A DNA stretch of 43,117 nucleotides from Deltaproteobacteria bacterium. GTDB taxonomy: Bacteria > Myxococcota > Myxococcia > Myxococcales > JAHFDP01. The notes below the pieces were generated by a model. That model was not told where the DNA came from. It was given only the letters and a program-made list of their open reading frames with translations, and ran no database searches. Location of the stretch: positions 6,485 to 49,601 of the forward strand of contig JAHFDP010000017.1 of assembly GCA_023248955.1 (NCBI GenBank), read 5' to 3'. Made by a program: the position numbers and the translations under genes. Shown piece by piece: positions 6,070 through 22,188 of this stretch. Every line of letters starts with the position of its first letter. The first letter of the stretch is position 1.

Positions 6070-6810
6070 TCAATTTGGCGGAAAGATGAAAGCCACATGC
6101 CGCCCCGTTTGGCCCCGATCGCGGCGATGGCTGAAAAAGCGGGAGGCGTCGCAACTCGTGCAGGCGTCCAGCACGTCGATGTGCGCGTCGGCGACCCCGG
6201 CGGAGCGCAACGCGGCGCGAACGGCAAAGGGCAAATCGACACGCGGGCTCGCGGCGTTCAGCTCAGCGGCGCCCGGCCCAAACGTCTCCGCAAAGTCGCG
6301 GGCCAATTCGGGTGAGACCGCGTAACAGCAACGGCGGATGCAAGGCCCGATGGCGGCGAGAATTTCATGCGGCTCAGCCCCGAGCGCCACCAACGCTTCG
6401 ACCCCGCGCGCCGCAATGGAAAGCCGTGCGCCGCGCCACCCGGAATGAACGGCGGCAACTGCCCCAATGCGCGGTGCGCAAAGGAGGAGCGGTGCACAGT
6501 CCGCGACGCGAACAGCCGCGGCCAGCCCACGCTCCGAAGAGACAACCCCATCCGCTTCTGGCCTGCTAGTCCAATGCCGATCCGCACGAACGATTCGATC
6601 GCCATGAACCTGCTTGGCCAACACGAAATCGGACGGCGCCGCGGAAGCGGCTTGCGCCAAGGTCCGCCACGGATCATTCGGGACCTGCCGAGCCGGTTCA
6701 AAAAATGAATCTAGATTCAGATTTTGAAATGGAGGTTCACCATTTGAGCGCTGCGTAAACCCATGCGCGATTCCGTTTGAGGCAAAGAGCGGCGAGGTCA
6801 GCCAAAGCAT
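6070..6810 (-). CDS. pgeF: PgeF/YfiH (LACC1-type) multicopper-like enzyme
   Basis: 246 residues from the ATG at 6810. It carries the family metal-site motifs: VLAKQVHGDRIV, VRVADCAPLLLCAP and AAVHSGWRGARLS, plus GPCIRRCCYAVSPELA. Bacterial YfiH/PgeF proteins act as purine nucleoside phosphorylase/adenosine deaminase-like enzymes or clear cell-wall synthesis errors; which applies here is not visible. Three in-frame start options exist (6864, 6819, 6810). I prefer 6810 because TATGAT lies 7 nt upstream, matching the leaderless pattern seen elsewhere in the window. It is the first gene of the minus-strand operon through the LysM gene. Confidence 0.93.
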   Translation of the reverse strand: MLWLTSPLFASNGIAHGFTQRSNGEPPFQNLNLDSFFEPARQVPNDPWRTLAQAASAAPSDFVLAKQVHGDRIVRADRHWTSRPEADGVVSSERGLAAAVRVADCAPLLLCAPRIGAVAAVHSGWRGARLSIAARGVEALVALGAEPHEILAAIGPCIRRCCYAVSPELARDFAETFGPGAAELNAASPRVDLPFAVRAALRSAGVADAHIDVLDACTSCDASRFFSHRRDRGQTGRHVAFIFPPN

Positions 6811-6817
6811 GGTGCTC

Positions 6818-6823
6818 ATCATA
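6818..6823 (-). promoter_or_regulatory. Candidate -10 of a leaderless pgeF transcript
   Basis: TATGAT on the minus strand lies 7 nt before the pgeF ATG at 6810, where transcription would begin at or beside the A of ATG. There is no Shine-Dalgarno sequence and no convincing -35. It is one of five similar TANNNT-N6/7-start arrangements in the window. Confidence 0.4.
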
Positions 6824-6883
6824 ACCACGCCGTCGTCGCGCGTGTCCCTTGACCTCCGCGCCACGCGGCGCTACGCCCACGCT

Positions 6884-7630
6884 ATGCCTACCGTCCCCGC
6901 CGGCACTCGCGTCTGCTCCAGCTGCGGCGTTCCGCTCGCCGCGGGCTTCCAATTCTGCCCCGGCTGCGGCAAGCCGGTCCCCGCTATCGCCAAGGTGGCC
7001 CGTCCGCGTGCACGCCTCTCTACCATCGCGCGCGACGGCAGTGCGTCGGCCGTCTACGATCTCGTCAAAGACGAAACGACGCTCGGCAAGGACGCCCAAA
7101 TCTCGCTGCCCGATCTCTACTTGGCGCCGCTGCACGCACGCTTCGTGTTCAAGGACGGCCAGCTGATCTTCGCGGACGCCGGAGCGCTCAACGGCATTTA
7201 CGTTCAGGTTCCCGCGCAGACCGACGTGCCGCTCGCACCGAACGACGAAATCCGCGTCGGCCGCCAGCTCTTGCGCGTCGCCGAAATGCCGCCCTACCCC
7301 GACGTCGAGGCACAACCGACGCAAGGCAGTCCTGATCCAGGCTATGTCGCTCGGCTCGAGCAGATCCTCGAAGGGGGCGAACTGGGCGATGCCTTTCCGC
7401 TCCGCGACGGCGACAACACGTTGGGCCGCACTGCTGCCGATATCCACTTTCCAACAGACGGATACGTCTCTTCCCGCCACGCGGTCGTGAAGCTCAGCGC
7501 CGGCACGGTGAGCATTCGAGACCTGGGCAGCGCCAATGGAACCTTCCTGCGTGTCCGCGGCGAAGCAGCGGTAAAGGCTGGCGATCTGTTGCTAGTCGGC
7601 GAGCAGCTCCTCCGCGTCGAACCGGCGTAA
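6884..7630 (+). CDS. Zinc-ribbon protein with two FHA domains
   Basis: 248 residues. Residues 10-27 form a zinc ribbon with two CxxC knuckles (CSSCG, CPGCG). A degenerate first FHA domain follows (about 45-130: TTLGKDAQISLPD, LHARFVFKDG, LNGIYVQVP). A canonical second FHA domain is at about 155-245 with NTLGRTAADIHFP, YVSSRHAVVKL and LGSANGTFLRV, the phosphothreonine-contacting G-R, S-R-H and N-G-T positions. FHA domains read Ser/Thr-kinase signals; no kinase is in the window. The ATG at 6884 is preceded by TTGACC (6849-6854) and, 17 bp on, a poor TACGCC -10 ending 6 nt before the ATG. It lies 61 bp upstream of the sigma-factor gene and may or may not be co-transcribed with it. Confidence 0.9.
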   Translation: MPTVPAGTRVCSSCGVPLAAGFQFCPGCGKPVPAIAKVARPRARLSTIARDGSASAVYDLVKDETTLGKDAQISLPDLYLAPLHARFVFKDGQLIFADAGALNGIYVQVPAQTDVPLAPNDEIRVGRQLLRVAEMPPYPDVEAQPTQGSPDPGYVARLEQILEGGELGDAFPLRDGDNTLGRTAADIHFPTDGYVSSRHAVVKLSAGTVSIRDLGSANGTFLRVRGEAAVKAGDLLLVGEQLLRVEPA

Positions 7631-7691
7631 TGCCCGTATCCCCGCTTCCCGACACTCGTTTTCTCCGCAGATTGACGTGGAGTGAGAGCTT

Positions 7692-8288
7692 TTGTCGGTG
7701 AGCGCACCACCGATGGAAGATGAAGCGCTACTCGCGGCTTTTGCGTCCGCGGGCGACGGGTCTGTGCGTGAGCTGGAGGCCGAGCGGCGCCGCACTTTTC
7801 GGGCGGTGGTCGAGCGGTATCAGGACAACGTTTTCAGGCTGGCGTTTCACCTAACCGGAAGCGCCGAAGAGGCGGAGGACATCGCGCAAGAAACCTTCGT
7901 GGCAGCATACGGGACGCTCGGAAAATTGCGCCCCGGATCGTCCATCGAAGCCTGGCTCACCAGCATCGCGGTCAATCGGGCGCGCGACTTTTTGAAGTCG
8001 CACCGCCACGCCAAAACCGAGGTGGTGGCGCCAGACGAGATGCCACAGCAGGCCGACCGGGACCGCAATCCCGAGGAGGTTGCCAGCGAAGGACAGCGGG
8101 AACAGCTTTTGCGCGAGGCCATCGAGCACCTTCCTCCCGCGTACCGAACGGTGGTCGTGCTCAGGGACATCGAGGACAAGAGTTACGAGGAGATTCGCGA
8201 GGTGTTGCCGCTGCCGCTGACGACTTTGAAGATGCGCGTCATCCGCGGACGACTGATGCTTCGCAAGTACTTGGAAGGACGGCTGTAG
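7692..8288 (+). CDS. ECF-family RNA polymerase sigma factor
   Basis: 198 residues. Region 2 is at about 35-85 (RYQDNVFRLAFHLTGSAEEA, EDIAQETFVAAYGTL, SIEAWLTSIAVNRARDFLKS). A variable linker follows, then region 4 at about 135-190 with LPPAYRTVVVLRDIEDKSYE and a helix-turn-helix ending LTTLKMRVIRGRLMLRKYL. ECF sigma factors direct RNA polymerase to a small regulon when released from a membrane anti-sigma factor, and the next gene encodes such a protein. The start is uncertain: TTG at 7692, GTG at 7698 or ATG at 7713; GGAG/GAGAG at 7679-7688 is better spaced for 7698. Confidence 0.93.
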   Translation: MSVSAPPMEDEALLAAFASAGDGSVRELEAERRRTFRAVVERYQDNVFRLAFHLTGSAEEAEDIAQETFVAAYGTLGKLRPGSSIEAWLTSIAVNRARDFLKSHRHAKTEVVAPDEMPQQADRDRNPEEVASEGQREQLLREAIEHLPPAYRTVVVLRDIEDKSYEEIREVLPLPLTTLKMRVIRGRLMLRKYLEGRL

Positions 8289-8364
8289 GTTTGGGTATGT
8301 CTTGTTTTTAACGTTAGATTCTGTTTCCTTAGGCTTTCGATTTTTCGAAAACAACGGAGTTTTC
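8289..8364. other. AT-rich spacer between sigma and anti-sigma genes
   Basis: A 76-bp spacer, markedly AT-richer than its surroundings. It includes the 10-bp palindrome TTTTCGAAAA (8342-8351) just upstream of the anti-sigma ribosome-binding site ACGGAG (8353-8358). It could be a regulatory or RNA-processing site; no clear promoter hexamers are visible. Confidence 0.3.
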
Positions 8365-9039
8365 ATGCGGGCGATGAACGAGCTGATGCGCCAAGCGGTC
8401 GACGGGGAGCTTTCCGAGACGGAAGCTGCGGAGCTTTTGCGCGACACGTCCCTCGCTGACGAGCTTCACAAGACCGCCGAGCTGCGCGCCGCGCTGCGCG
8501 GTCTCTCGGCGCCCAAAGTGCGTCCTGGATTTTCGGCGCGTGTTCTGGCGCGGCTTCCTGCCAAACGCTCTCTTTTTGAGCGCGTTTTCGAGGCGCTTGC
8601 GACGCCCCGTTTTACGCTTCGTTTTTCCGCCGGAACCCTGACCGCCGCCTGCGCAGGACTCGCCGTCATTGCGTTGACTTTGCCGCGCGCTTCCGCACCG
8701 GCGCAGCAAATCCAAATGGCACAAGCGGTCCAGACGCCCGCAACGCTCATCCCGGCAGCTTACGCGCCTTCTTCCGACGAAGTGCCGGTGCGGTTTGTGG
8801 TGGTTCAGCCTGACGCGAAGGACGTGGCGCTGGCCGGCGATTTCAACGGCTGGAAGACCAACGCGCTACACTTGACGCCCGCCGCGGAGCCAGGTCTTTG
8901 GACGGTCACCGTGAAGCTCCCACGCGGCCACCATCGCTACATGTTCGTGGTGGATGGGAAGCGTTGGGAGACCGACCCTCTCGCCGAGGAACACCACCGC
9001 GACGGGTTCGGCCACGAAAACGCCGTTCTCGATTTGTAA
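8365..9039 (+). CDS. Membrane anti-sigma factor with periplasmic glycogen-binding (CBM48-type) domain
   Basis: 224 residues from the ATG at 8365 (ACGGAG 7 nt upstream). Residues 1-48 are helical and RseA-like (MNELMRQAVDGELSETEAAE, then DELHKTAELRAALRGL). There is no HxxxCxxC zinc motif. A membrane helix spans about 86-108 (GTLTAACAGLAVIALTLP), then a Gln/Ala/Pro linker. Residues ~140-224 form an AMPK/CBM48-type module: VALAGDFNGWKTNALHLTP, GLWTVTVKLPRGHHRYMFVV, DGKRWETDP, ending DGFGHENAVLDL. Genetic pairing with the sigma factor supports the anti-sigma role (inference). The same domain ends the next protein. It may sense polysaccharide, or the barrel, in the periplasm. Confidence 0.82.
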   Translation: MRAMNELMRQAVDGELSETEAAELLRDTSLADELHKTAELRAALRGLSAPKVRPGFSARVLARLPAKRSLFERVFEALATPRFTLRFSAGTLTAACAGLAVIALTLPRASAPAQQIQMAQAVQTPATLIPAAYAPSSDEVPVRFVVVQPDAKDVALAGDFNGWKTNALHLTPAAEPGLWTVTVKLPRGHHRYMFVVDGKRWETDPLAEEHHRDGFGHENAVLDL

Positions 9040-9087
9040 CACTCCCCTCTCGCCAGTAGGGCCAGCGCTGGTATATTCCTGCGCTTC

Positions 9088-10407
9088 GTGCCTCCTCGCA
9101 TCACCGCTGTCATCTGTTGCTACCTTTGGGCTGGCACGGCCCGAGCGGAGCCGTGGCTGCACCTCGACCTTTCCGCGTCGGGTGGCTACGACGACAACAT
9201 CTTCCTCGATGCCAACCGTCCGCACGACCGCTCGGTCCGCACGCCCCGTGCCGACCTCACGGAAATCGCCACTGGAACGTTTGAAGCGGACCTCGTTTCG
9301 GAGTCGATCGATCGCGTCGAGCTGCGCTACGAACCACTGCTCGTCAACTTCGCCGATCCATTCAATGGATGGATTACCGACCACCTCGCCACGCTCAGTT
9401 TTACGAAAGCCTTGAGCAAACGCGTGGCGACCGTCTTTGATCTGGGAGGTGAGTTTTACGACATCGCCGCCTTCCGAGAAGACCTCTTCCTCCTGGCCCG
9501 CGGCGCGCTAGGCCTCCGCTACCGGGGTGACAACTTTTCGCTCTTGGCCCAGTACGGCGCGGGCTTCCGGAGTTACCCGCGACGAACTATCAGCGCCCAC
9601 AGCGAAAAACATCAGCTGGATCTCGAGTCGGCGCCGTCCGTCGAGGGCAGGTGGAACATCTTTTCATCCTTCGCGATCTTCGCCAGCTATCGCTTTCTCC
9701 TGCGGTCCAGCGACAACATCATTCAGCTTCAGAAGCAGACGCTCCACCCGCTTGATGGCTGGGAGCATGGCGGCACGGTCGCGGCCGCCCTTGACCTCCC
9801 GTGGAGTCTCTCGATCACCGGCGGCGTCTTTGCCGCGCTTCGCGCCCTACCCGGCTTTCCCTCCGCCGGAGGAGGCGGAAGCACTTTTGTCGGCCGCAAC
9901 GACGTCGCCCGAGGCGCAATCGCTACACTCCGATGGGGCGCGCTCCGGCCCTTCGCTCTGCGCCTAAACGCAACGACCTTTTTGAACACCTCGGACGATG
10001 CCGCCGCCATTTTCAACAAAACCACGCTTTCCTTCGGTGTGGAGTACGCGTGGGACGGCGGCAACGCGAAAGCGCGCCGTTCGATGTCCGAAGGCGCCTC
10101 GACCCTCGCCCCGGAACAGACACCCGAAGGATGGCGATTCGCGGTGCTTGCTACCGGGGCGCGCGAGGTCTACCTGGTCGGAAGCTTCAACCACTGGAGC
10201 CGTCACGCGAGCCCGATGCCCTGCGACGCGGCGGGGCTCTGCACGGCGGTCTTGCCACTTTCGCCCGGCCACTACCGCTACCTCTTTTTGGTCGACGGAA
10301 CCTGGGTATCACCCGAGGGTGCCGCCGGTAGCGCGGACGAAGGATTTGGCAAGGAAAATGGCCTTCTCGAGGTGCCAGCCACGGAAAACAGTCTCACGGA
10401 AAGGTGA
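9088..10407 (+). CDS. Outer-membrane beta-barrel with C-terminal glycogen-binding domain
   Basis: 439 residues. The signal peptide ends ARA|EPW (about residue 20). Residues ~25-330 are alternating amphipathic beta strands typical of an outer-membrane barrel (LHLDLSASGGYDDNIFLDAN, LRYEPLLVNFADPFNGWITD, LATLSFTKALSKRVATVFDL, LSFGVEYAWDGG). Residues ~345-430 form an AMPK/CBM48-type domain: REVYLVGSFNHWSRHASPM, LSPGHYRYLFLVDGTWVSP, ending EGFGKENGLLEV. This closely parallels the anti-sigma factor. Carrying a soluble carbohydrate-binding domain after the barrel is unusual. The start is GTG, with an extended -10-like TGGTATATT (9070-9077: TG at 9069-9070, hexamer 9072-9077) just upstream. Barrel function (porin, export or scaffold) is unknown. 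Confidence 0.82.
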   Translation: MPPRITAVICCYLWAGTARAEPWLHLDLSASGGYDDNIFLDANRPHDRSVRTPRADLTEIATGTFEADLVSESIDRVELRYEPLLVNFADPFNGWITDHLATLSFTKALSKRVATVFDLGGEFYDIAAFREDLFLLARGALGLRYRGDNFSLLAQYGAGFRSYPRRTISAHSEKHQLDLESAPSVEGRWNIFSSFAIFASYRFLLRSSDNIIQLQKQTLHPLDGWEHGGTVAAALDLPWSLSITGGVFAALRALPGFPSAGGGGSTFVGRNDVARGAIATLRWGALRPFALRLNATTFLNTSDDAAAIFNKTTLSFGVEYAWDGGNAKARRSMSEGASTLAPEQTPEGWRFAVLATGAREVYLVGSFNHWSRHASPMPCDAAGLCTAVLPLSPGHYRYLFLVDGTWVSPEGAAGSADEGFGKENGLLEVPATENSLTER

Positions 10408-10483
10408 CGCGCTGTGTTGACCGAAAAAAGGACAGTAGGGCGTATCGCACCGCCCCCAAGCTCGTTTTCGCGGTAGAAAGGTA

Positions 10484-11293
10484 ATGAATATGCGCGGCTT
10501 TCTTGCAAAATTGACGATCTTGGTGTTGGCCGGCGCGACCGCTGGTCGGGCTCGAGCGGATGGGCTCGACGATCAGGCAATGCGCGATCTCTCTTCCGAT
10601 GAACGTCTGCCGCTGCTAATGCGCCAGGCGTTGGCAAGTGAAGTTGCGGCGGCCCAGCAGGAAGGCGTTCCAGCGACGTTGCTCGTGGATCGGGTCGAAG
10701 AGGGCCTCGCCAAAGGGGCCGCCCCCAGTGAGATTGAACAGCTCGTGCGGCGCCAACATGCGACGTTCGCGCAGGCCGCGCGTCTTCTGAAAACGGCGGC
10801 ACCAGGTGTTTTGAATGGCGCCGACGGCCGCAGCGCGCTGGAAGCAACGGGCGAGGCGTTAGCGTCCGGCGTCCAGGCCGAAAAACTCGGCACTTTCCTA
10901 GGCCATCCTTCTCAGCTGCGCCAAGGCCAATCGCCGCTCGCCACGGAAGTTCGGGCGCGCGCCGAAGCAGCAGCCAACTTGGCCGAGCATGGGTTTCCGA
11001 CGGAAGGGGCCGTGGCGCTTCTTTTCAGCGCCGTGGATCGTGGCCATGAGCGGCAGGCTCTGCGTGCGGTCACCGGAGCTGCGGAACGGCTTGATCGCGA
11101 AGGTCGTGGACCGCGTGAACCGCTCTTGGGACGCCTCCACGAAGAGATCCTCCGCGGTCGTTCGCCAGCGGACCTCTACAACACCGTCGCGGCGCAGCTG
11201 CCGCAGGCACGGACCGAGAAGCGCGCGCTTCGTCACGGCGAGCAGCGCGGTCCGGATCGCGACGAGGCTTACGCTCACGCGCCTGGGAAGTAG
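10484..11293 (+). CDS. Exported helical protein of unknown function
   Basis: 269 residues. A signal peptide ends near ARA|DGL (about residue 25). The mature part is almost entirely helical, Ala/Glu/Arg-rich, with three loosely similar segments (GVPATLLVDRVEEGLAKGAA, ALEATGEALASGVQAEKLG, GFPTEGAVALLFSAVDRGHE), suggesting internal repeats. The tail is basic and His-rich. No catalytic motif is visible and I do not recognise the family. AGAAAGG precedes the ATG. TTGACC occurs at 10417-10422 but without a good -10. Same-strand position suggests it belongs with the sigma-factor cluster. Confidence 0.7.
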   Translation: MNMRGFLAKLTILVLAGATAGRARADGLDDQAMRDLSSDERLPLLMRQALASEVAAAQQEGVPATLLVDRVEEGLAKGAAPSEIEQLVRRQHATFAQAARLLKTAAPGVLNGADGRSALEATGEALASGVQAEKLGTFLGHPSQLRQGQSPLATEVRARAEAAANLAEHGFPTEGAVALLFSAVDRGHERQALRAVTGAAERLDREGRGPREPLLGRLHEEILRGRSPADLYNTVAAQLPQARTEKRALRHGEQRGPDRDEAYAHAPGK

Positions 11294-13040: not shown

Positions 13041-14081
13041 TTAGGCGGCGCGGGCCAGGACCAGATCCGCGATGCCAGCAAGTCTTATTTGAGCTTCCTT
13101 GTTGAGGCTGGTTCGGCCGAGCGCGGCAACGGCCGCATCGACCCGACTGCGCACCCTGTTTTGCGTCTCAGTCCTCGCGCCGGTGGATTCTAGAATCGCT
13201 CGCAAATGGGCCACGTCTCCGTCGGACAAATCGCGGCGGCCCAAGCCAGCGGCGAGTACGGCGCGATCCTTTTCAAGCGCGCGCTCCCAGGCCAGCGCAA
13301 CGAGCAGTGTCTGCTTTCCCTCTCGTAAATCACCGCCAGCGGGTTTTCCTGTGATCGCGGGATCGGCGAACGCACCCTGCAGATCATCGGCCAGTTGAAA
13401 GGCCTCGCCCAGCGGACCGGCATACGCTTGGAGACCGTCGACCTGCGATTGGGACGCACCCGCGAGCACAGCCCCCACGGCGAGCGGCAGCTCAAACGTG
13501 TAGCGGCCGGTTTTGAGCTGCTCGATCTTTTGAACCCCCTCGGCGGCAAGCGGAGGACCCAACGGCGCAAGCACGTCCAAGCCCTGACCCAGATTGGTGT
13601 CCTCAAGCGCGTCGAAGAGGAGTCGCAGCGCTCGCAGCTCTCGCTCGGCGGGGAAGATTCCGGAGGCGACGCACTGCGCGGCATAACTTTGCAAGAGGCC
13701 GCCCAGGACCAGCGTGAGCGAAAGGCCGCGGTGATCGTCCTTCGCCTCTCGCGCCGCCGCGAGGTGCAACGCGGGCCCGCCGCGTCGCGTCTCATCGCGG
13801 TCCATGACGTCGTCGTAGGCGAGAAGCCAAGCGTGGGTGAGCTCGAGACCCATGGCCGCGTCTAGGACGTCGCTCGGGCGACCGCCGAAACCTTCGTGGG
13901 CAATGGTGCAGAGCGCGCCGCGAAGGCGCTTTCCGCCGCGCAGCACATAGTCTCGCAAGTGGCGATGAAAACGCGCGAGGTCAACCGGCATGGCTGCCAA
14001 TCGACGCTCGCGGCCGAGAAGCAACGCCGTGAGCCGCGTGTCGCAAGCGCGGGCGAATTCGTCGAGGTAGGCGGTGATCAT
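13041..14081 (-). CDS. Polyprenyl diphosphate synthase (trans-isoprenyl transferase)
   Basis: 346 residues of the FPP/GGPP synthase fold. RGGKRLRGALC is the diphosphate-binding region. The first Asp-rich motif is DDVMD in HAWLLAYDDVMDRDETRRG. LKTGRYTFELPLAVGA is typical. The second Asp-rich motif is AFQLADDLQGAFADP, where the third Asp of DDxxD is Gly, as in the DDLLG-type motif of many geranylgeranyl/long-chain synthases. It condenses isopentenyl diphosphate with allylic diphosphates. It lies directly downstream of HMG-CoA reductase, so it probably uses mevalonate-derived units. A 60-bp palindromic element separates the two genes. Product chain length cannot be read here. Confidence 0.93.
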   Translation of the reverse strand: MITAYLDEFARACDTRLTALLLGRERRLAAMPVDLARFHRHLRDYVLRGGKRLRGALCTIAHEGFGGRPSDVLDAAMGLELTHAWLLAYDDVMDRDETRRGGPALHLAAAREAKDDHRGLSLTLVLGGLLQSYAAQCVASGIFPAERELRALRLLFDALEDTNLGQGLDVLAPLGPPLAAEGVQKIEQLKTGRYTFELPLAVGAVLAGASQSQVDGLQAYAGPLGEAFQLADDLQGAFADPAITGKPAGGDLREGKQTLLVALAWERALEKDRAVLAAGLGRRDLSDGDVAHLRAILESTGARTETQNRVRSRVDAAVAALGRTSLNKEAQIRLAGIADLVLARAA

Positions 14082-14091
14082 TTACCCGTCA

Positions 14092-14151
14092 CTAAGCGGA
14101 AATTCACCATGGCCGTCTTAAGGTAACGGCAATTGTGGTTTTTTAGCTAAG
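14092..14151. repeat. 60-bp palindromic mini-element, solo terminal repeats flanked by CTAAG
   Basis: Flanked by direct repeats CTAAG (14092-14096 and 14147-14151). Inside, the left end GCGGAAATTCACCATGGCCG and the inverted right end CTAAAAAACCACAATTGCCG form an imperfect palindrome around CTTAAGG. The right half (GGCCGTC, three bases, AGGTAACGGCA, two bases, TGTGG) matches the right terminal repeat of the 374-bp element at 27046-27068. It fills the gap between HMG-CoA reductase and polyprenyl synthetase, and the right CTAAG supplies the HMG-CoA reductase stop codon (TAG on the minus strand). Confidence 0.75.
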
Positions 14152-15418
14152 TCATTTCGCGCAAGAGCGCTTCCGCGCGCGACAGTTTGATCTCACCACA
14201 AGCGATGAGCGCTTCCGCTAGCCGCTCGACCGCGCCGCCCGTGGCACCCGCCGCGTGAGCCACGGCGCGAGCGTGCAGCGCCATGTGGCCCTCTTGAATT
14301 CCCACGGTGGCAAGCGCGCGCAGCGCCGCCAGATTTTGCGCGAGCCCCACGGCCGCCATCACCGCGGCCAGATCGCGCGCATCGGGGCAACGCAAGACTT
14401 TCGTCAGCAAAAACTTCGCCAGCGGATTGCCACGCACGGCGCCGCCGACTGTCCCGACTTGAATCGGCAATTCGATTTGTCCGACCAGCGCGCCATCGAC
14501 AAAGCGCCAGGTGGAGAGCGGCGAATAGCGTCCGGACCGCGCGGCGAACGCGTGCGCACCGGCCTCAATCGCGCGCCAGTCGTTCCCCGTGGCAATGGCC
14601 AGCGCGTCGACGCCGTTCATCACACCCTTGTTGTGGGTGCACGCGCGGTAAGGATCCTGCTCGGCGAATCGGCTGGCCGCTTCGATGCCACGCGCGACTT
14701 CTTCGCCCGATCGTCCAAAGCAGGAGAGCGCCTCGGCAGGAATACGGCAGCGGGCGCGCGCCAGTCGATGGTCGGCCAGGTTGGAGAGAATTTTCAAACC
14801 GACGCGGCCGCGCGCGAGGATCGCCACGCGGGGCGCGATTCCCTCGACCATGGTGTTGATGAGATTCGCACCCATGGCATCGCGGGTGTCCACGAGCAGA
14901 TGGACCACCAGTTCGAGTGGCCGCCCCTCACCAGGATCGAGCACGCGAACTTCCAAATCGCGCGCGCCGCCGCCACGCTCAGCGAGTTGCGGATGAAAGG
15001 AATCCGCGAGCGCGAGGAGCTCCGCCTTGCTCGCGATCAGCGCCGCTCGCCCGGCTTCGATATTTTCAATTCGCGCGATCTGAATCTGCCCGATCATCAC
15101 CGGCGGATCGGCCTCGGCGTCGAAGCCTCCGGCGCCACGCGCAATTTTGGCAGCAAGCGAACAGGCCGCGACGACGCTGGCCTCCTCCACCGCCAGTGGA
15201 ATCAAACGGTCGCGGCCGTTGATGCGAAAATTGAGCGCCAGCCCTACGGGAAGGCCCATCACGCCGACGGCGTTTTCGATCATCGCGTTGGCGGAAGCGA
15301 TCGGCAACGAAGCGTCCGCCATCAACGGCTCGAGATCGCGCACCGACAGATCGAGCTCGCGTGCGAGCGTCTCCCATCGCTCGTTAACCGAGAGCTTTTG
15401 AAAGCCGGGGAGGCGCAT
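14147..15418 (-). CDS. mvaA: Hydroxymethylglutaryl-CoA reductase, class II
   Basis: 423 residues, the usual class II length. It makes or consumes mevalonate by four-electron transfer between HMG-CoA and NAD(P)H. Catalytic residues are all visible: Glu in AVEEASVVAAC (78-79), Lys264 in THNKGVMNG, Asp280 in ATGNDWRAIEAG and His378 in IQEGHMALHAR. DTRDAMGANLINTMVEG is the class II signature. Neighbouring polyprenyl synthetase favours a biosynthetic (isoprenoid) role over mevalonate catabolism. No other mevalonate-pathway gene is in the window. The stop codon lies within the CTNAG repeat of the adjacent palindromic element. Confidence 0.95.
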   Translation of the reverse strand: MRLPGFQKLSVNERWETLARELDLSVRDLEPLMADASLPIASANAMIENAVGVMGLPVGLALNFRINGRDRLIPLAVEEASVVAACSLAAKIARGAGGFDAEADPPVMIGQIQIARIENIEAGRAALIASKAELLALADSFHPQLAERGGGARDLEVRVLDPGEGRPLELVVHLLVDTRDAMGANLINTMVEGIAPRVAILARGRVGLKILSNLADHRLARARCRIPAEALSCFGRSGEEVARGIEAASRFAEQDPYRACTHNKGVMNGVDALAIATGNDWRAIEAGAHAFAARSGRYSPLSTWRFVDGALVGQIELPIQVGTVGGAVRGNPLAKFLLTKVLRCPDARDLAAVMAAVGLAQNLAALRALATVGIQEGHMALHARAVAHAAGATGGAVERLAEALIACGEIKLSRAEALLREMT

Positions 15419-16083: not shown

Positions 16084-19000
16084 CTACTGGTGAAAAGAGT
16101 AGAGGCCGGCCGACGTCGTGAAATAGACGGTTTTCTGTCCGCCGACGAACGCCGTGCCCACCGCGGTTGGATCAAAACCGCTTGGAAGGCCCGCGGAGCC
16201 TGCCTTGTAGGCGAGAAAATTTTTCGCGGCGCGCTTGTAACGGTAGATGCCGCCCGCGACGGCCATCCAGATGTCACCCGCAGCGTCTACAGCGATGCCG
16301 CGCACGTCGTTGGAGGGCATGGGCACGGAAGATCCCGTGCTAAGATGGTCGAATCTGGTTGACGCCCACGGCTGATTGATGCCGGGATTGAGGTGTGCGG
16401 CACCGTTGGCCGCCACGCTGGCGCCGGCCGCATTCACCGAGACGCCGCTGCCGATCCAGAGCTCGCTCGAAAGGTAGGGCGCGATGGCGCGGACCTGGTC
16501 GTTCACATTTTGGAAAACGTCGTCGGTCTGCTTGTCGCCCCAGGTGAGCGCGGTGGTTTCGAAGAGGCTCACGTCATTCGCCGCATAGAGATGGCCTGCG
16601 CCGTCGAAGCCGATGGCGTAGTAGCTGTCGACGCACGGCGCGTAGGGCAATGCGCCCGATCCGGCGGGGAAGAGGCAGCTGGCGCCTGAGCGGGATCCCG
16701 CTGGAGAGAAGCGCTGCACGGTGCCGGGATTGGCAGCGGGCATGAGCCACACGTCGCGTTCGGAAGCGACCCAGAGATCGGTGACCGTCGACGCGTTGGA
16801 ACCCGGAGCGAGCGCCAGGGCAGCAATGCCCGCGGGATCGCTGCCACCGCTCGTGTGCAGCGCAAACGGCTCGACCGTGTCGTTGCCACCCGTCCAGTCG
16901 ACGGTGAATCGCCTGAGCGCGTTGGAATTCGCGGCGCCAAACCAGACTCGGCCTTGCTGATCGAACAACGCCGCGCGTACCGCGGACCCTTGTCCCTGAG
17001 ACAGCGTGCGCCAAATCGCGCCATCGTAAACATAGCCGCCGCCGTCGGTGGCCAAGGCCAGCCGGCCACTCGCGTCGACAGAAATGCCGTGCTGGCCCGA
17101 CCAGGCCGAATCGCTGACACCGTTCGTGCCGAAGGCTTGGAGATCGTTGACCGTCACCTGCACGCTAGCCGTCGACGAGCGCGCCGGATTGGACTGACTG
17201 ACCGTGACATCGAACGTGAGTGGCGTGCTGCTCCCGCCTAGCGCCTCGAACGTGGGTGAGGCGCTGGACACTCCGGAAAGTGCCACCGCGTAGGGAGTGC
17301 CGCTGGTTTGCGTCCAATGGTAGTTGAGGTTCGCGTCGCAGTCGGTGGAAACCGATCCGCTTCCGTCGAGCGTCACGTGATCGTCTCGGAACACTTGGAA
17401 CGATGAGCCGGCGTTGGCGCTGGGCGAGCGCTTGATCGTTACCGCCGACGAGGTAACCGCCGCCGTAATGGCCGCTGCTCCGGTGTTGTGATCCGTTCCC
17501 GTGGCGTTCCCGCGAAAGGCCACGGCGCACGGATTGGTTGCGACATAGGTCCAGGTGAAACTCCGCGAGCTGCCGCCGCTGATGGACGCGCGCGTGCTGG
17601 GTTGCGCCGACAGCGTCGCCGAACCGCTTCCCGAAAGTGTCAAGGCGCTCGGCAAAACGTTGTCGGCGGTGGATGCGCCGCTGGCGTTGGAGACCGCCAT
17701 GGTGACGGTGATGGTGTTGTTCGAGGCGTTGTCGGTCTGCACGATGGAAGGACCAACAGCGAGGATCGCAGTCAGCGCCGGCGGTGACTGCACGAGGAGC
17801 GTCCCGGCTTGCGACACCGTGCCCGCGCTTGTTCCGGAGTTGGCGTCGACCGCGGTCGCGCTGGCGCTGATCACCACGTTGCCGAGCGTCGCGGCCTTGG
17901 AAACCGCGACCGTAAAGGCCAACTGTGCCGTGGCGCCGCTGGCGAGCGATGGCAGCGCGCCCGAGAGCGTGGATGTATATTGAGTGGATACATCACCTCC
18001 ACTCAGTGTAAAGAGAAGCCCCGCGGCAGTGACGTTGGCGTTGGCCCCGCCGGTGTTGCGAATCTGCGCCACCACCGAAAGGCCCTGCTGCCCCACTGTC
18101 GCCGAGAGCGGAACGGCGACGCTGGTCATGGAGAATTTGGCCGGCGTCTGCACGATCCACTGTCCCTTGCTGGACACGGTGGCTGCCGGCGATCCCACGG
18201 CGGCGGCGCCGGTGTTGTCATCGCTGCCCGTCGCCATGGCATCGAGGGTAATCACGCCGGTTGGCGCCGAAGCAGACACGGCCACGGAGTAGGCCAACGC
18301 AACGCTTTTGTTGCCGCTCACACTCGATGGATTTCCAGCGACCGGCGTCGCTGTAAAAGCGCTCCCGACCGAAACGCCGCTGCTTTTGAAAATTGGCGTC
18401 ACCGACAAAAGATCAAGTTTGGCCTCGCCCACATTCGTGACCGTGACGGTCAATGCCGCCGTGTTTTGCCCTTGGCTGACCGTGGCGTTCGCCGTAGGAG
18501 AAGGCCCCACCGCGCTCAGCACCAACTGCGCGCGGCTCTGCACCATCCAGTTGCCCGGCGACTCGGGACCTGTAACCACGAGTATGTTGCTCTGGGAATC
18601 GTGCGCGGAAATCGCCGCGCCCACGGTGACCGCGCCGCTCGTTGCGCCACTGGAAACGCCGACGGTATAGCCAAGCGTGACCGATCCGCCCGCCGGAACG
18701 GTGGTGGCGTTGTTGGAATCTGCGGTGACCGTAAAATCGCTCTGCGCATCGTTGGTCGCCGCGCGCGTGAAGGTTAGCGCCGCCGACTGGATGGTCGCGT
18801 CCAGCGCTTTGCTGTTGCTGGCCGTCACCGTCACGCGCAAGTTTTGTTGCCCCTTGCTGACGAACGCCTGTGGAACCGTCACTGCGCCGATGGCCACCTG
18901 GGCATTGGGCGACACCGTCCAACTGGCGGTGTGCGGCGCAGCAGTTGGTGCGTCGATCGTGGACTTGGAATTGTCGTCCAACGCGGCTATCGCGCCGTCA

Positions 19001-22000
19001 AGAATCACCGCGGTGTTGGCCAGCGCGCCCGCGTGAACTTGGACCGCAAGCTGCACCGACGCAGTCGTTCCGCCCAAGATGGTCACGTTCTGACTAGTTG
19101 TGGTTACCGTGTAGTCACCACTCCGATCGGCTCCGGAAGCCTTGAACGAGAGCGTCGCGGCCGTCACATCCGCCAGCGCGCCGCCCAGATTCTGCACCTG
19201 CGCGGTGACCACCACTGCTGATTGTCCTTGGGTCACCGACGTGGGCGCGCTGAGCGAAGCAAGCACAATCTGCGCCGGCGACTGCACGGCCCAGCTGGCC
19301 ACGAAGCCCGACGCCACCGCCGCCGTGGTCGAGGAATTTTTATCGGCCCCCGAAACGCTCGCGGAGAGACTTACGGTGCGCGGCGCCGCGGTGGCGCTGA
19401 CGGCGCATAAGTACACGAGCGTCACGGGATTTCCGCTGGTGACGAATCCAGCGTTGCTGGCGTCCGCCGTGCAGACATAGTCGCTCGTCACATCCGCCTT
19501 CGTGTCCGCGGCTTGGAAGCTGAGCGTCACCGGCTTCGCTGCATCGAGCACAAACGTTGCTTCGCCGCTGTTGGTCACGGTCACGGCGACTCGGGCGGCC
19601 GCTTCACCGCTGCTCACGCTGGCATCGGCGACGATGGACGAGACGGAGTGCTTCGCCGCCGTCTGCACCGTCCACATCGCGGCAACACCGGTCGGAAACG
19701 TGGGCGATGCATCCGTCCCCGCGTTGGCGTCGGTGGCGGAAATGCGCGGATCGATGCTGGTCAGTCCGGACGCCGCATTGGCGTGCACCGCGACTTGAAA
19801 GCTCACCGTGGCAACGCCGTCGTTTCCGGAGACCGCCGCGTCCACTGTCGTTGGATTCTTGGCCGACGGCGTGACGTCGTAGTCACTCGTGGCGTCCACG
19901 CTCCCGCGCGTGAACGTCAACTTCGTCGCGGTGAGATTCGCTGCGGCGCCTCCTGCGTTCGTCACTTTGACCAGCACGGTGGCCACCTGTCCCTGCGAAA
20001 CAGCACCGGTGGCCGAGGTGGTCACTGTGGACACAACGAGGCTGGGTGGCGATTGAATGAGCAGCGTTGCCGCGCTGGTGGCGTCCGTGGACGCGGCGAG
20101 TTGGGTCGAGGTGTCGTTGTTGTCGGTGGCAGAAATCGTCGCGTTGAGGGTGTCGGCCTGCAGCGTCGCGCCAGCCTTAACCAGCACGGTGAAATGGAGC
20201 GTGGTGACTTTTCCACCGGGAGCCGCCAGCGGCAACGAGTCGATCGGCGTGATAACGAAATCGTTATCGGCCCCTTTGCTCCCGGCGGTGAACCCCAGCG
20301 TGGCGGCGGTGAGCTGCGCGCCCGCTTCGCCGCTGTTTTGCACATCGATGCTCACGTCGGTGTTGGTACCCGCCGTTGCGGAGGACGGAGCATGAATCGC
20401 GAGCACCTGAATTTGCGCCGCCGATTGAATCGTGAGGAGCGCCGATCGCGATCCGTTGGCGGTGACCGGCTGAATCGCGGCATCTTGCAGCGTAGCGTTT
20501 CCGATAAGCGCCAGCGCGCCCCGCTGCGTCGCCGAGTAGGTCCACGTAAACGTCGCCGCACCGCCCGACGAGAGCGAAGCAATGCTGGCGGGATTCGGAC
20601 CAGACACCAACGAGGCCTTGGCGTTGCCGTCGGTCGTGAGTGGACTCGGGCTCACCGTGGTAATGGCCCCAGCGCTTTGGTTGGTCACCGTCATGGTGAC
20701 GTTGAAGTTCTGACCGACGTTGGCAGCGCAAGCACCGGCGCAACGTTCGGGAGCAACGGCGAGCGCGGTGAATACTTTCGTGATCGGTTGCAATACAAGC
20801 GGCGCGGAGGTGGTGTTGGCCTGCTTGGGCGTCCGATCCGCATGATCGAGACCCACCACCGCCGCGGACAGCACCACGGTCCCGGCGGCCTGCGCGGTGT
20901 AGGTGAAGGCGAAATCTTGCGCGGAACCTGCGGCGATCGAGACCGCCGGAGGAACAACACCCTTGCGCGAAACGATGCCATCGCCGCTGTTTTTAGAGAG
21001 CGTCACAGTCACGTTGTCGGCCGCCACGCCACCGGGATTGGCCACGTGCACCACCACGCCAAAGTCGCGCCCCACATCGACGGGCGACGGCGTGGCCAGG
21101 AAGGTGGCCACCAGCGTGGCCGACTTGGCGATGGTCACGTCCTGCGATTGCGCACCTGCGGGGCTGGCCACCGCGGCGTTGTTGTTGGCGTCTACGCCGG
21201 CCACGCCGTCGAGCGAAAAATGGAGCGTGCCCGGCGCGCGCGCTTGAAAAATCCATTTGAGCTGCTGCGTTTTTCCGCTCTCGACATCCACCGTTGCGGG
21301 GATTGGCCCAGTGCCGGCATCGATGAGCGACGTGTCGCTCGGGGTGAGTGTTCCGGGCGTGACGGCTTTCGCCGTGGCCCCGCCGCTGTTGGTCACCAGC
21401 GCCACGACTTCGAACGTCTGCCCAGTTGCTACGACGTTGTCGGACGGCGCGAGGAGCGTCACCGTCAATGCCGGCGACGCCTCTACCGTGACCTGTGTTG
21501 TCACGGTTGCGGTTGCGCCATCCGAATCCGTCAGCGTCAGCGTCAGCTTGTGTTTGCCGCTCGCCAGATGAACGGTAACCGGATTTGCTGGGTCGAGGTT
21601 GCCTATCTTGAGCGCGGTGGTGTTGCCCTCCTCGCTCCAATTGAACTGCACGGGATCACCGTCCACGTCGCCGCAGGCCGACATGTCGAGCGTAACGGCC
21701 GCGGCGCCGCTGGAATCGGCGGTCGCGAAAAGCGTGTCGTGGACTTTGGCGAAGGGCACAGCATTGTTGATCTGCACGTCGAGCGGTTTCTCGTCTTGCG
21801 CCTTGCCGTCGCTGACGGTGAGCAGCAAATGATGCAACCCCTTGGGCAGCCCGACGGTTGACTTGACATTATTCGAGAGCGTGGTTTCGCCCTCCTTCCA
21901 CGCATACGTCAGCGGATCGCCGTCCGGATCACTCGACGCACTGCCGTCGAGCAGCACAGACGTCTTCGGTGCATTGGCGGTCAGCGTCTGATTCGCGCCC

Positions 22001-22188
22001 GGCACGGCGAGCGGCGCCTGGTTGAGCACAGAGCCGTTCGCCACGCACGTGTCGGTCGCGGTGTCGCAAAAAAATCCGGCGGCGCATTGGCGCGCGGCAT
22101 CGCATTTCTTGCCGGTGAGTTGCGTGGAAGCGAGGCGCGTTCCGCACGCGGTCAGCGCCAGTGCAACGAGGAGTAAATTTTTCATCAC
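16084..22188 (-). CDS. Giant repetitive surface lipoprotein (PKD, CARDB-like repeats, propeller)
   Basis: 2034 residues. The signal peptide ends in the lipobox LALTAC. A small Cys-rich knot follows (CDAARQCAAGFFCDTATDTC), then two PKD-like domains (about 58-240; LLDGSASSDPDGDPLTYAWK). Eleven CARDB-like immunoglobulin repeats of ~122 residues span about 240-1590, each opening like SPAQIVLASLSAP with VTVTNxG and ISATDxN motifs. A further PKD/REJ-like domain (VTLDGSGSVSTDCDANLNYH) precedes a C-terminal ~330-residue propeller resembling sensor 'two-component propeller' blades (DVRGIAVDAAGDIWMAVAGG). Likely an adhesin or scaffold on the outer surface. Its ATG overlaps the upstream stop by 4 nt (ATGA). 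Confidence 0.88.
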   Translation of the reverse strand: MMKNLLLVALALTACGTRLASTQLTGKKCDAARQCAAGFFCDTATDTCVANGSVLNQAPLAVPGANQTLTANAPKTSVLLDGSASSDPDGDPLTYAWKEGETTLSNNVKSTVGLPKGLHHLLLTVSDGKAQDEKPLDVQINNAVPFAKVHDTLFATADSSGAAAVTLDMSACGDVDGDPVQFNWSEEGNTTALKIGNLDPANPVTVHLASGKHKLTLTLTDSDGATATVTTQVTVEASPALTVTLLAPSDNVVATGQTFEVVALVTNSGGATAKAVTPGTLTPSDTSLIDAGTGPIPATVDVESGKTQQLKWIFQARAPGTLHFSLDGVAGVDANNNAAVASPAGAQSQDVTIAKSATLVATFLATPSPVDVGRDFGVVVHVANPGGVAADNVTVTLSKNSGDGIVSRKGVVPPAVSIAAGSAQDFAFTYTAQAAGTVVLSAAVVGLDHADRTPKQANTTSAPLVLQPITKVFTALAVAPERCAGACAANVGQNFNVTMTVTNQSAGAITTVSPSPLTTDGNAKASLVSGPNPASIASLSSGGAATFTWTYSATQRGALALIGNATLQDAAIQPVTANGSRSALLTIQSAAQIQVLAIHAPSSATAGTNTDVSIDVQNSGEAGAQLTAATLGFTAGSKGADNDFVITPIDSLPLAAPGGKVTTLHFTVLVKAGATLQADTLNATISATDNNDTSTQLAASTDATSAATLLIQSPPSLVVSTVTTSATGAVSQGQVATVLVKVTNAGGAAANLTATKLTFTRGSVDATSDYDVTPSAKNPTTVDAAVSGNDGVATVSFQVAVHANAASGLTSIDPRISATDANAGTDASPTFPTGVAAMWTVQTAAKHSVSSIVADASVSSGEAAARVAVTVTNSGEATFVLDAAKPVTLSFQAADTKADVTSDYVCTADASNAGFVTSGNPVTLVYLCAVSATAAPRTVSLSASVSGADKNSSTTAAVASGFVASWAVQSPAQIVLASLSAPTSVTQGQSAVVVTAQVQNLGGALADVTAATLSFKASGADRSGDYTVTTTSQNVTILGGTTASVQLAVQVHAGALANTAVILDGAIAALDDNSKSTIDAPTAAPHTASWTVSPNAQVAIGAVTVPQAFVSKGQQNLRVTVTASNSKALDATIQSAALTFTRAATNDAQSDFTVTADSNNATTVPAGGSVTLGYTVGVSSGATSGAVTVGAAISAHDSQSNILVVTGPESPGNWMVQSRAQLVLSAVGPSPTANATVSQGQNTAALTVTVTNVGEAKLDLLSVTPIFKSSGVSVGSAFTATPVAGNPSSVSGNKSVALAYSVAVSASAPTGVITLDAMATGSDDNTGAAAVGSPAATVSSKGQWIVQTPAKFSMTSVAVPLSATVGQQGLSVVAQIRNTGGANANVTAAGLLFTLSGGDVSTQYTSTLSGALPSLASGATAQLAFTVAVSKAATLGNVVISASATAVDANSGTSAGTVSQAGTLLVQSPPALTAILAVGPSIVQTDNASNNTITVTMAVSNASGASTADNVLPSALTLSGSGSATLSAQPSTRASISGGSSRSFTWTYVATNPCAVAFRGNATGTDHNTGAAAITAAVTSSAVTIKRSPSANAGSSFQVFRDDHVTLDGSGSVSTDCDANLNYHWTQTSGTPYAVALSGVSSASPTFEALGGSSTPLTFDVTVSQSNPARSSTASVQVTVNDLQAFGTNGVSDSAWSGQHGISVDASGRLALATDGGGYVYDGAIWRTLSQGQGSAVRAALFDQQGRVWFGAANSNALRRFTVDWTGGNDTVEPFALHTSGGSDPAGIAALALAPGSNASTVTDLWVASERDVWLMPAANPGTVQRFSPAGSRSGASCLFPAGSGALPYAPCVDSYYAIGFDGAGHLYAANDVSLFETTALTWGDKQTDDVFQNVNDQVRAIAPYLSSELWIGSGVSVNAAGASVAANGAAHLNPGINQPWASTRFDHLSTGSSVPMPSNDVRGIAVDAAGDIWMAVAGGIYRYKRAAKNFLAYKAGSAGLPSGFDPTAVGTAFVGGQKTVYFTTSAGLYSFHQ
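17440..21480 (-). repeat. Eleven tandem CARDB-like repeat units in the giant lipoprotein gene
   Basis: About 4 kb encoding eleven consecutive ~122-residue units. Similarity is clear in protein but diverged in DNA: unit heads include SPALTV, SATLVA, AAQIQV, PPSLVV, AAKHSV, PAQIVL, NAQVAI, RAQLVL, PAKFSM and PPALTA. This indicates old duplication rather than recent slippage. Boundaries are approximate. Confidence 0.75.

Follow-up and report, generated by a model that had tools for sequence, protein, structure and literature searches.

The window, a stretch of 43,117 nucleotides from a Myxococcota genome of 3.83 Mb (contig JAHFDP010000017.1), carries at positions 7692-10407 the genes for an ECF sigma factor, an anti-sigma factor and an outer-membrane barrel protein, exactly at the coordinates that the original prediction had given for them. 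This set of three genes stands but is not complete, as a fourth gene (d1, 10484-11293) and two promoter-like sites had been overlooked. The features of the locus, all on the plus strand, are given below in order of position.

7635-7663, plus strand: promoter-like site 1, CGTATC-N14-CTCGTTTTC, 29 nt upstream of the sigma start
7692-8288, plus strand: ECF sigma factor, matching Sigma70_r2 (E 1.7e-17) and r4_2 (E 1.7e-11) in Pfam; TTG start, with an ATG at 7713 as the alternative
8365-9039, plus strand: class I anti-sigma factor, with the anti-sigma domain at residues ~1-80, a predicted membrane helix at ~88-106 and then a CBM48 domain predicted to be periplasmic
8785-9033, plus strand: CBM48/AMPK1_CBM domain of the anti-sigma factor (A type), PF16561, E 7.7e-12 at residues 141-223; both AMPK stacking-Trp positions are present
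9088-10407, plus strand: outer-membrane beta-barrel with a C-terminal CBM48 domain; 12-strand model with fold matches; PF16561 (AMPK1_CBM), E 6.6e-10 at residues 356-432
10120-10383, plus strand: CBM48 domain of the barrel protein (B type), expected to be periplasmic, with Pfam and structural matches
10441-10469, plus strand: promoter-like site 2, with a bipartite motif identical to that of site 1, 15 nt upstream of the d1 start
10484-11293, plus strand: d1, a putative secreted protein, all-helical in its model and without a Pfam family

The sigma factor consists of regions 2 and 4 (PF04542, PF08281/PF04545), with no further sigma region among its Pfam matches. Sequence as well as position marks its neighbor as a class I anti-sigma factor, since a profile of the N-terminal region built from 17 relatives matched RsiW (E 1.7e-9), MucA (E 9e-4) and RseA (E 1.6e-3); the proposed pairing of an ECF sigma factor with an RseA-like anti-sigma factor is thereby supported. 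Hydropathy analysis found a single hydrophobic segment in the anti-sigma factor, at residues ~88-106, and one membrane helix is predicted between its cytoplasmic and external parts. Its C-terminus additionally matches CBM_48 in Pfam (E 4.9e-9), its CBM48 domain has the AMPK beta subunits as top sequence matches in the PDB, and an AMPK1_CBM/CBM48 domain was present in all 25 anti-sigma factors scanned with Pfam. At a Rokubacteria locus (L097, 3880-5118) sigma regions 2 and 4, the anti-sigma region, a membrane segment and CBM48 lie in one frame of 413 amino acids, a possible sigma-anti-sigma fusion that would fit a cognate pair. Another fusion, at locus L161, was set aside, as sigma region 4 is missing from it and assembly error or decay may explain it. 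The genome of the window encodes three candidate M50 site-2 proteases, and at one locus elsewhere (L035, 10685-11791) an M50-CBS membrane protease that may serve the pathway as site-2 protease is encoded directly 3' of d1.

The third gene had been described as encoding a barrel that ends in a module related to that of the anti-sigma factor, and the structure model, with a mean pLDDT of 69.5, agrees, starting with a signal-like helix at the N-terminus and showing 12 long strands over residues 23-323. It aligned best to KdgM, CymA, NanC and autotransporter barrels (Z ~15-16), and its C-terminal domain to the solved CBM48 domains of feruloyl esterases (Z ~12). The confidence of the barrel model is modest, and a porin-like fold would say little about the substrate. 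Given the even number of strands, both ends of the barrel, and hence its CBM48 domain, should face the periplasm. A reading of the barrel as a TonB-dependent receptor was rejected, with no TonB receptor or plug family found by Pfam and 12 strands in the model. Pfam cut-offs, the AMPK beta matches in the PDB and the structural alignment of the barrel-protein domain together support the CBM48 fold on both proteins, contrary to the refuting outcome of another fold that the original prediction had named, and the motifs GxFNxW, G-H-[HY]-R-Y-x-F-x-VDG and [DE]GFGxEN are common to the two modules, as claimed.

The fusion of barrel and CBM48 holds for the window but is one of two ways in which the partner CBM48 is anchored, the second being a separate CBM48 lipoprotein beside a barrel. 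The one-protein form was found in the window and at one G137 locus, and the partner in Gemmatimonadota, other Myxococcota and Eisenbacteria is a protein of 360-480 amino acids with CBM48 at its C-terminus. Anaeromyxobacter and related genera have the order sigma factor, CBM48 anti-sigma factor, barrel of ~297 amino acids, CBM48 lipoprotein of ~120 amino acids and d1. Nitrospira combines a lipoprotein as partner CBM48 with a different barrel (Phenol_MetA_deg-like), which is encoded directly upstream of the sigma gene. Whether fused or a lipoprotein, the partner would therefore belong to the outer membrane, provided that the lipoproteins are sorted there.

The protein encoded by d1 has a signal-peptide-like start and an all-helical model (pLDDT 88) with a C-terminal tail of low confidence. 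Pfam and NCBIfam gave no match for it, and a fold search gave none at E<=0.001, its top rows being designed helical repeats, which does not show that the fold is new. Among Myxococcota, d1 is present in all 11 genomes that have the anti-sigma factor, and weak matches to it occur in 3 of the 184 others. At L059 (6722-8147), where no sigma gene adjoins, a d1 homologue lies beside the gene for a membrane-anchored CBM48 protein whose N-terminal part is shortened.

Conservation of the module was assessed over 85 loci with the anti-sigma factor, mainly from Nitrospirota, Gemmatimonadota and Myxococcota and also from several further phyla. In this sample, which is biased to the best matches and dominated by related Nitrospira, a sigma gene adjoins the anti-sigma gene at 82 loci, a second CBM48 is encoded nearby at 79 and a d1 homologue adjoins at 84, and two of the three loci without an adjoining sigma gene are contig ends. 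This adjacency is far beyond chance, and a rare association of the genes is refuted. Scanning a single genome of each species yielded 80 loci, mostly from Nitrospira (Candidatus N. defluvii and N. moscoviensis included) and otherwise from Gemmatimonadota, Myxococcota, Eisenbacteria, Acidobacteriota, Rokubacteria, Spirochaetota and Lentisphaerota. The module is thus present in Myxococcota, where it had been expected, but its occurrence there is patchy, as 11 of 195 genomes match the anti-sigma factor strongly, and it was far more often retrieved from Nitrospira. It is absent from Myxococcus itself, whose CBM48 matches were rejected as members, being esterase- or amylase-like proteins without a neighboring sigma gene. 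Many Nitrospira loci encode a protein of five DUF5666 repeats upstream of the module (L078, 3404-4657, and relatives), and DUF4382 or DUF4382-like lipoproteins are encoded by the module at L034 and L040.

The motif CGTATC-N14-CTCGTTTTC has exact copies only at 7635 and 10441 in the whole genome; it was found by comparing the two upstream regions and was therefore chosen after the fact; its support comes from other genomes. The two sites can alternatively be read as GTATC-N17-GTTTTC, with the same spacing as in GTAAC-N17-GTCTAA, which lies upstream of the sigma gene in other phyla. Eight sites at six loci, none of them in the window, gave a weight matrix of the latter type; when held-out loci were scored with it, 47 of 76 sigma upstream regions reached at least 10, against 1 of 76 when reversed and 0 of 76 when shuffled. 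The same score was reached by 11 of the 76 sigma upstream regions as reverse complements, by 4 of 82 anti-sigma upstream regions and by 10 of 76 d1 upstream regions (0-2 in controls). The site in Nitrospira reads TTTAC and then CGTCTAATGA, ~91 nt upstream of the nominal sigma start. The natural reading of these promoter-like sites is that the sigma factor would regulate its own gene. A relaxed search of the genome of the window, with three mismatches allowed, gave 102 sites against 101 in the control, and as there is no excess, no wider regulon is visible. Counts of exact GTAAC-N-GTCTAA matches over whole loci were discarded as uninformative (66 against 85 in shuffled sequence), so that only the position of a site relative to the genes is informative.

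The CBM48 domains of the anti-sigma factors (A) and of their partners (B) largely form separate groups across phyla, according to a tree that required 4 label changes compared with 27 for shuffled labels and that, being built from only 95 columns, has limited support at its base. A DP pair is invariant in the A types, and PP stands at the same place in most B types. We take Trp100, Trp133, Asn150 and Lys126 to be the binding residues of AMPK beta1, with Trp100 and Trp133 stacking on the glucan. The position of Trp100 is Trp in 100% of A types and 98% of B types, that of Trp133 is Trp in 98% and 85%, and that of Asn150 is Asn in 93% and 80%, respectively, while Lys126 is not kept at its position, where 87% of the A types and 62% of the B types have Met. 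The 15% of B types that miss the second Trp include the lipoproteins of Anaeromyxobacter. The retention of the stacking residues favors a glycan ligand, without proving it, and glycogen or another alpha-glucan is an unproven candidate. A lack of glycogen metabolism, considered as an argument against an alpha-glucan, proved neutral, given the three GH13 matches and the GlgA-type synthase found in the genome; no glycan enzymes were recognized beside the module of the window. The two modules had been called glycogen-binding, of which the family assignment to CBM48 stands but the label is too specific, since CBM48 domains fused to CE1 (feruloyl) esterases do not bind starch (PMC8040265).

Based on these observations, we tentatively favor a self-contained trans-envelope cassette, in which joint recognition of a glycan by both CBM48 domains would trigger proteolysis of the anti-sigma factor, a scheme for which we see somewhat less than an even chance. 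In the resting state, the inner-membrane anti-sigma factor would bind the sigma factor through its N-terminal domain and would have its CBM48 domain in the periplasm. The partner CBM48 would sit on the periplasmic side of the outer membrane, where it would be part of a monomeric, porin-like barrel protein or a lipoprotein accompanied by a separate barrel. The most likely trigger would be a glycan or oligosaccharide, perhaps let in by the barrel and captured by both domains. Engagement of the anti-sigma CBM48 would lead to regulated proteolysis of the anti-sigma factor, as for RsgI and RseA. Once free, the sigma factor would transcribe the operon that encodes it and, in the genome of the window, also d1 with its matching promoter, so that the feedback would be positive. 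The broader proposal, a new class of envelope signaling in which a matched pair of CBM48 domains reads either a shared periplasmic ligand or each other and informs the sigma factor from both membranes, in many phyla including the nitrite oxidizers of Nitrospira, is plausible but still doubtful in our judgment.

The paired domains may instead bind each other and not a glycan, so that their contact would protect the anti-sigma factor (or expose it when lost) and report barrel assembly, lipoprotein delivery or membrane spacing. We regard this as rather unlikely, although it would suit a sensor linked to the inner membrane and a partner that, fused or as a lipoprotein, is linked to the outer one, and although the A and B types are distinct across phyla with signatures of their own, DP in A and PP in B. 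It also has a precedent in a CE1 esterase dimer, whose two CBM48 domains clasp each other in the crystal and did not bind the glycans tested (PMC8040265). Against it, both types mostly keep the Trp pair that stacks on glucan, which pure protein contact would not need, and at five loci (L116, L117, L119, L089 and L097) the anti-sigma factor has its CBM48 domain while a second CBM48 was not detected.

A less probable alternative is that the A-type domain senses a glycan of the cell's own envelope (lipopolysaccharide, exopolysaccharide or a peptidoglycan-linked glucan) when stress brings it into the periplasm, with barrel, lipoprotein and d1 as the repair output. RseB senses LPS in a comparable way, and Nitrospira, in which the module is found, are autotrophs that do not live on external polysaccharide; further, the module's own genes look like its regulon. 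Speaking against such sensing, no LPS or exopolysaccharide gene cluster was seen among the conserved neighbors, most clusters of which are without annotation, and Pfam found no RseB domain in the module genes scanned. That the genes of the window are chance neighbors, a reading to which the patchy distribution in Myxococcota lends some color, is practically discounted by the conserved adjacency over many phyla, the co-occurrence of d1 and the promoter-like site common to the sigma gene and d1.

The cassette would combine an ECF sigma/anti-sigma pair of a known sort with what appears to be a new paired sensor spanning two membranes. No description of it was found in the literature searched, in keeping with the original prediction, to which no described ECF group with such an arrangement was known; the 2021 ECF reclassification lay outside the search, so that a group number for the sigma factor may exist. 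Among known systems, the SigI/RsgI pair of Clostridium thermocellum has in RsgI a membrane-bound anti-sigma factor that bears a carbohydrate-binding-type module on the outside; it senses substrates, and RseP cleavage frees an anti-sigma fragment from it (PMC12203970; PMC4711584). However, RsgI and SigI belong to other anti-sigma and sigma families, their CBM families differ, and C. thermocellum, as a Gram-positive without an outer membrane, has no outer-membrane partner with a matching domain. Membership in RsgI was rejected, as Pfam found no RsgI family in 25 members and the N-terminal profile goes to RsiW/RseA. The SigmaE/RseA/RseB system of E. coli shares the ECF sigma factor, a single-pass class I anti-sigma factor with a related N-terminal domain, presumably RIP, and the reporting of envelope state, but its sensor is RseB together with the DegS-OMP signal, RseA has no CBM48 domain and an outer-membrane partner with the same domain is lacking. 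The glycogen-binding domain of AMPK beta and other CBM48 domains (PF16561, PF02922) are of one family with the cassette domains, which keep both stacking Trp positions, but AMPK beta is cytosolic and eukaryotic, whereas the cassette domain is predicted to be periplasmic, is borne by an anti-sigma factor and does not keep the Lys126 position. FecI/FecR/FecA likewise has an outer-membrane barrel encoded alongside a sigma/anti-sigma pair, but the barrel of the cassette is porin-like with 12 strands in its model, with no TonB-dependent receptor or plug found. The monomeric porins KdgM, NanC and CymA are the best structural matches of the barrel fold, but with an identity of 6-12% no sequence relationship is apparent, and their solved structures have no attached CBM48.

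The analysis thus defines a cassette of four parts, namely the sigma factor, the CBM48 anti-sigma factor, the outer-membrane CBM48 partner with its barrel, and d1, with a predicted promoter, in bacteria whose envelope signaling is largely unstudied, among them Nitrospira, Gemmatimonadota and Anaeromyxobacter. Should the ligand prove to be a glycan, the cassette would play in Gram-negatives the part that RsgI plays as a sensor of carbohydrates, and if the CBM48 domains pair, it would represent a new way of gauging the outer membrane from the inner membrane. An unnamed protein family, d1, gains a genomic context, and the proteins of the cassette should not be annotated as glycogen enzymes.

Further genes around the module were also noted. 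A zinc-ribbon protein with two FHA domains is encoded just upstream of it in the window (6809-7627), and genes for FHA and Ser/Thr kinase proteins lie just downstream of it at Anaeromyxobacter loci (L037). Farther along the window, a polyprenyl synthetase gene adjoins one for HMG-CoA reductase (13041-15418), pointing to a mevalonate-type isoprenoid route, and 16087-22185 encodes a protein of ~2033 amino acids with PKD-type and CARDB repeats that is probably surface-exposed.
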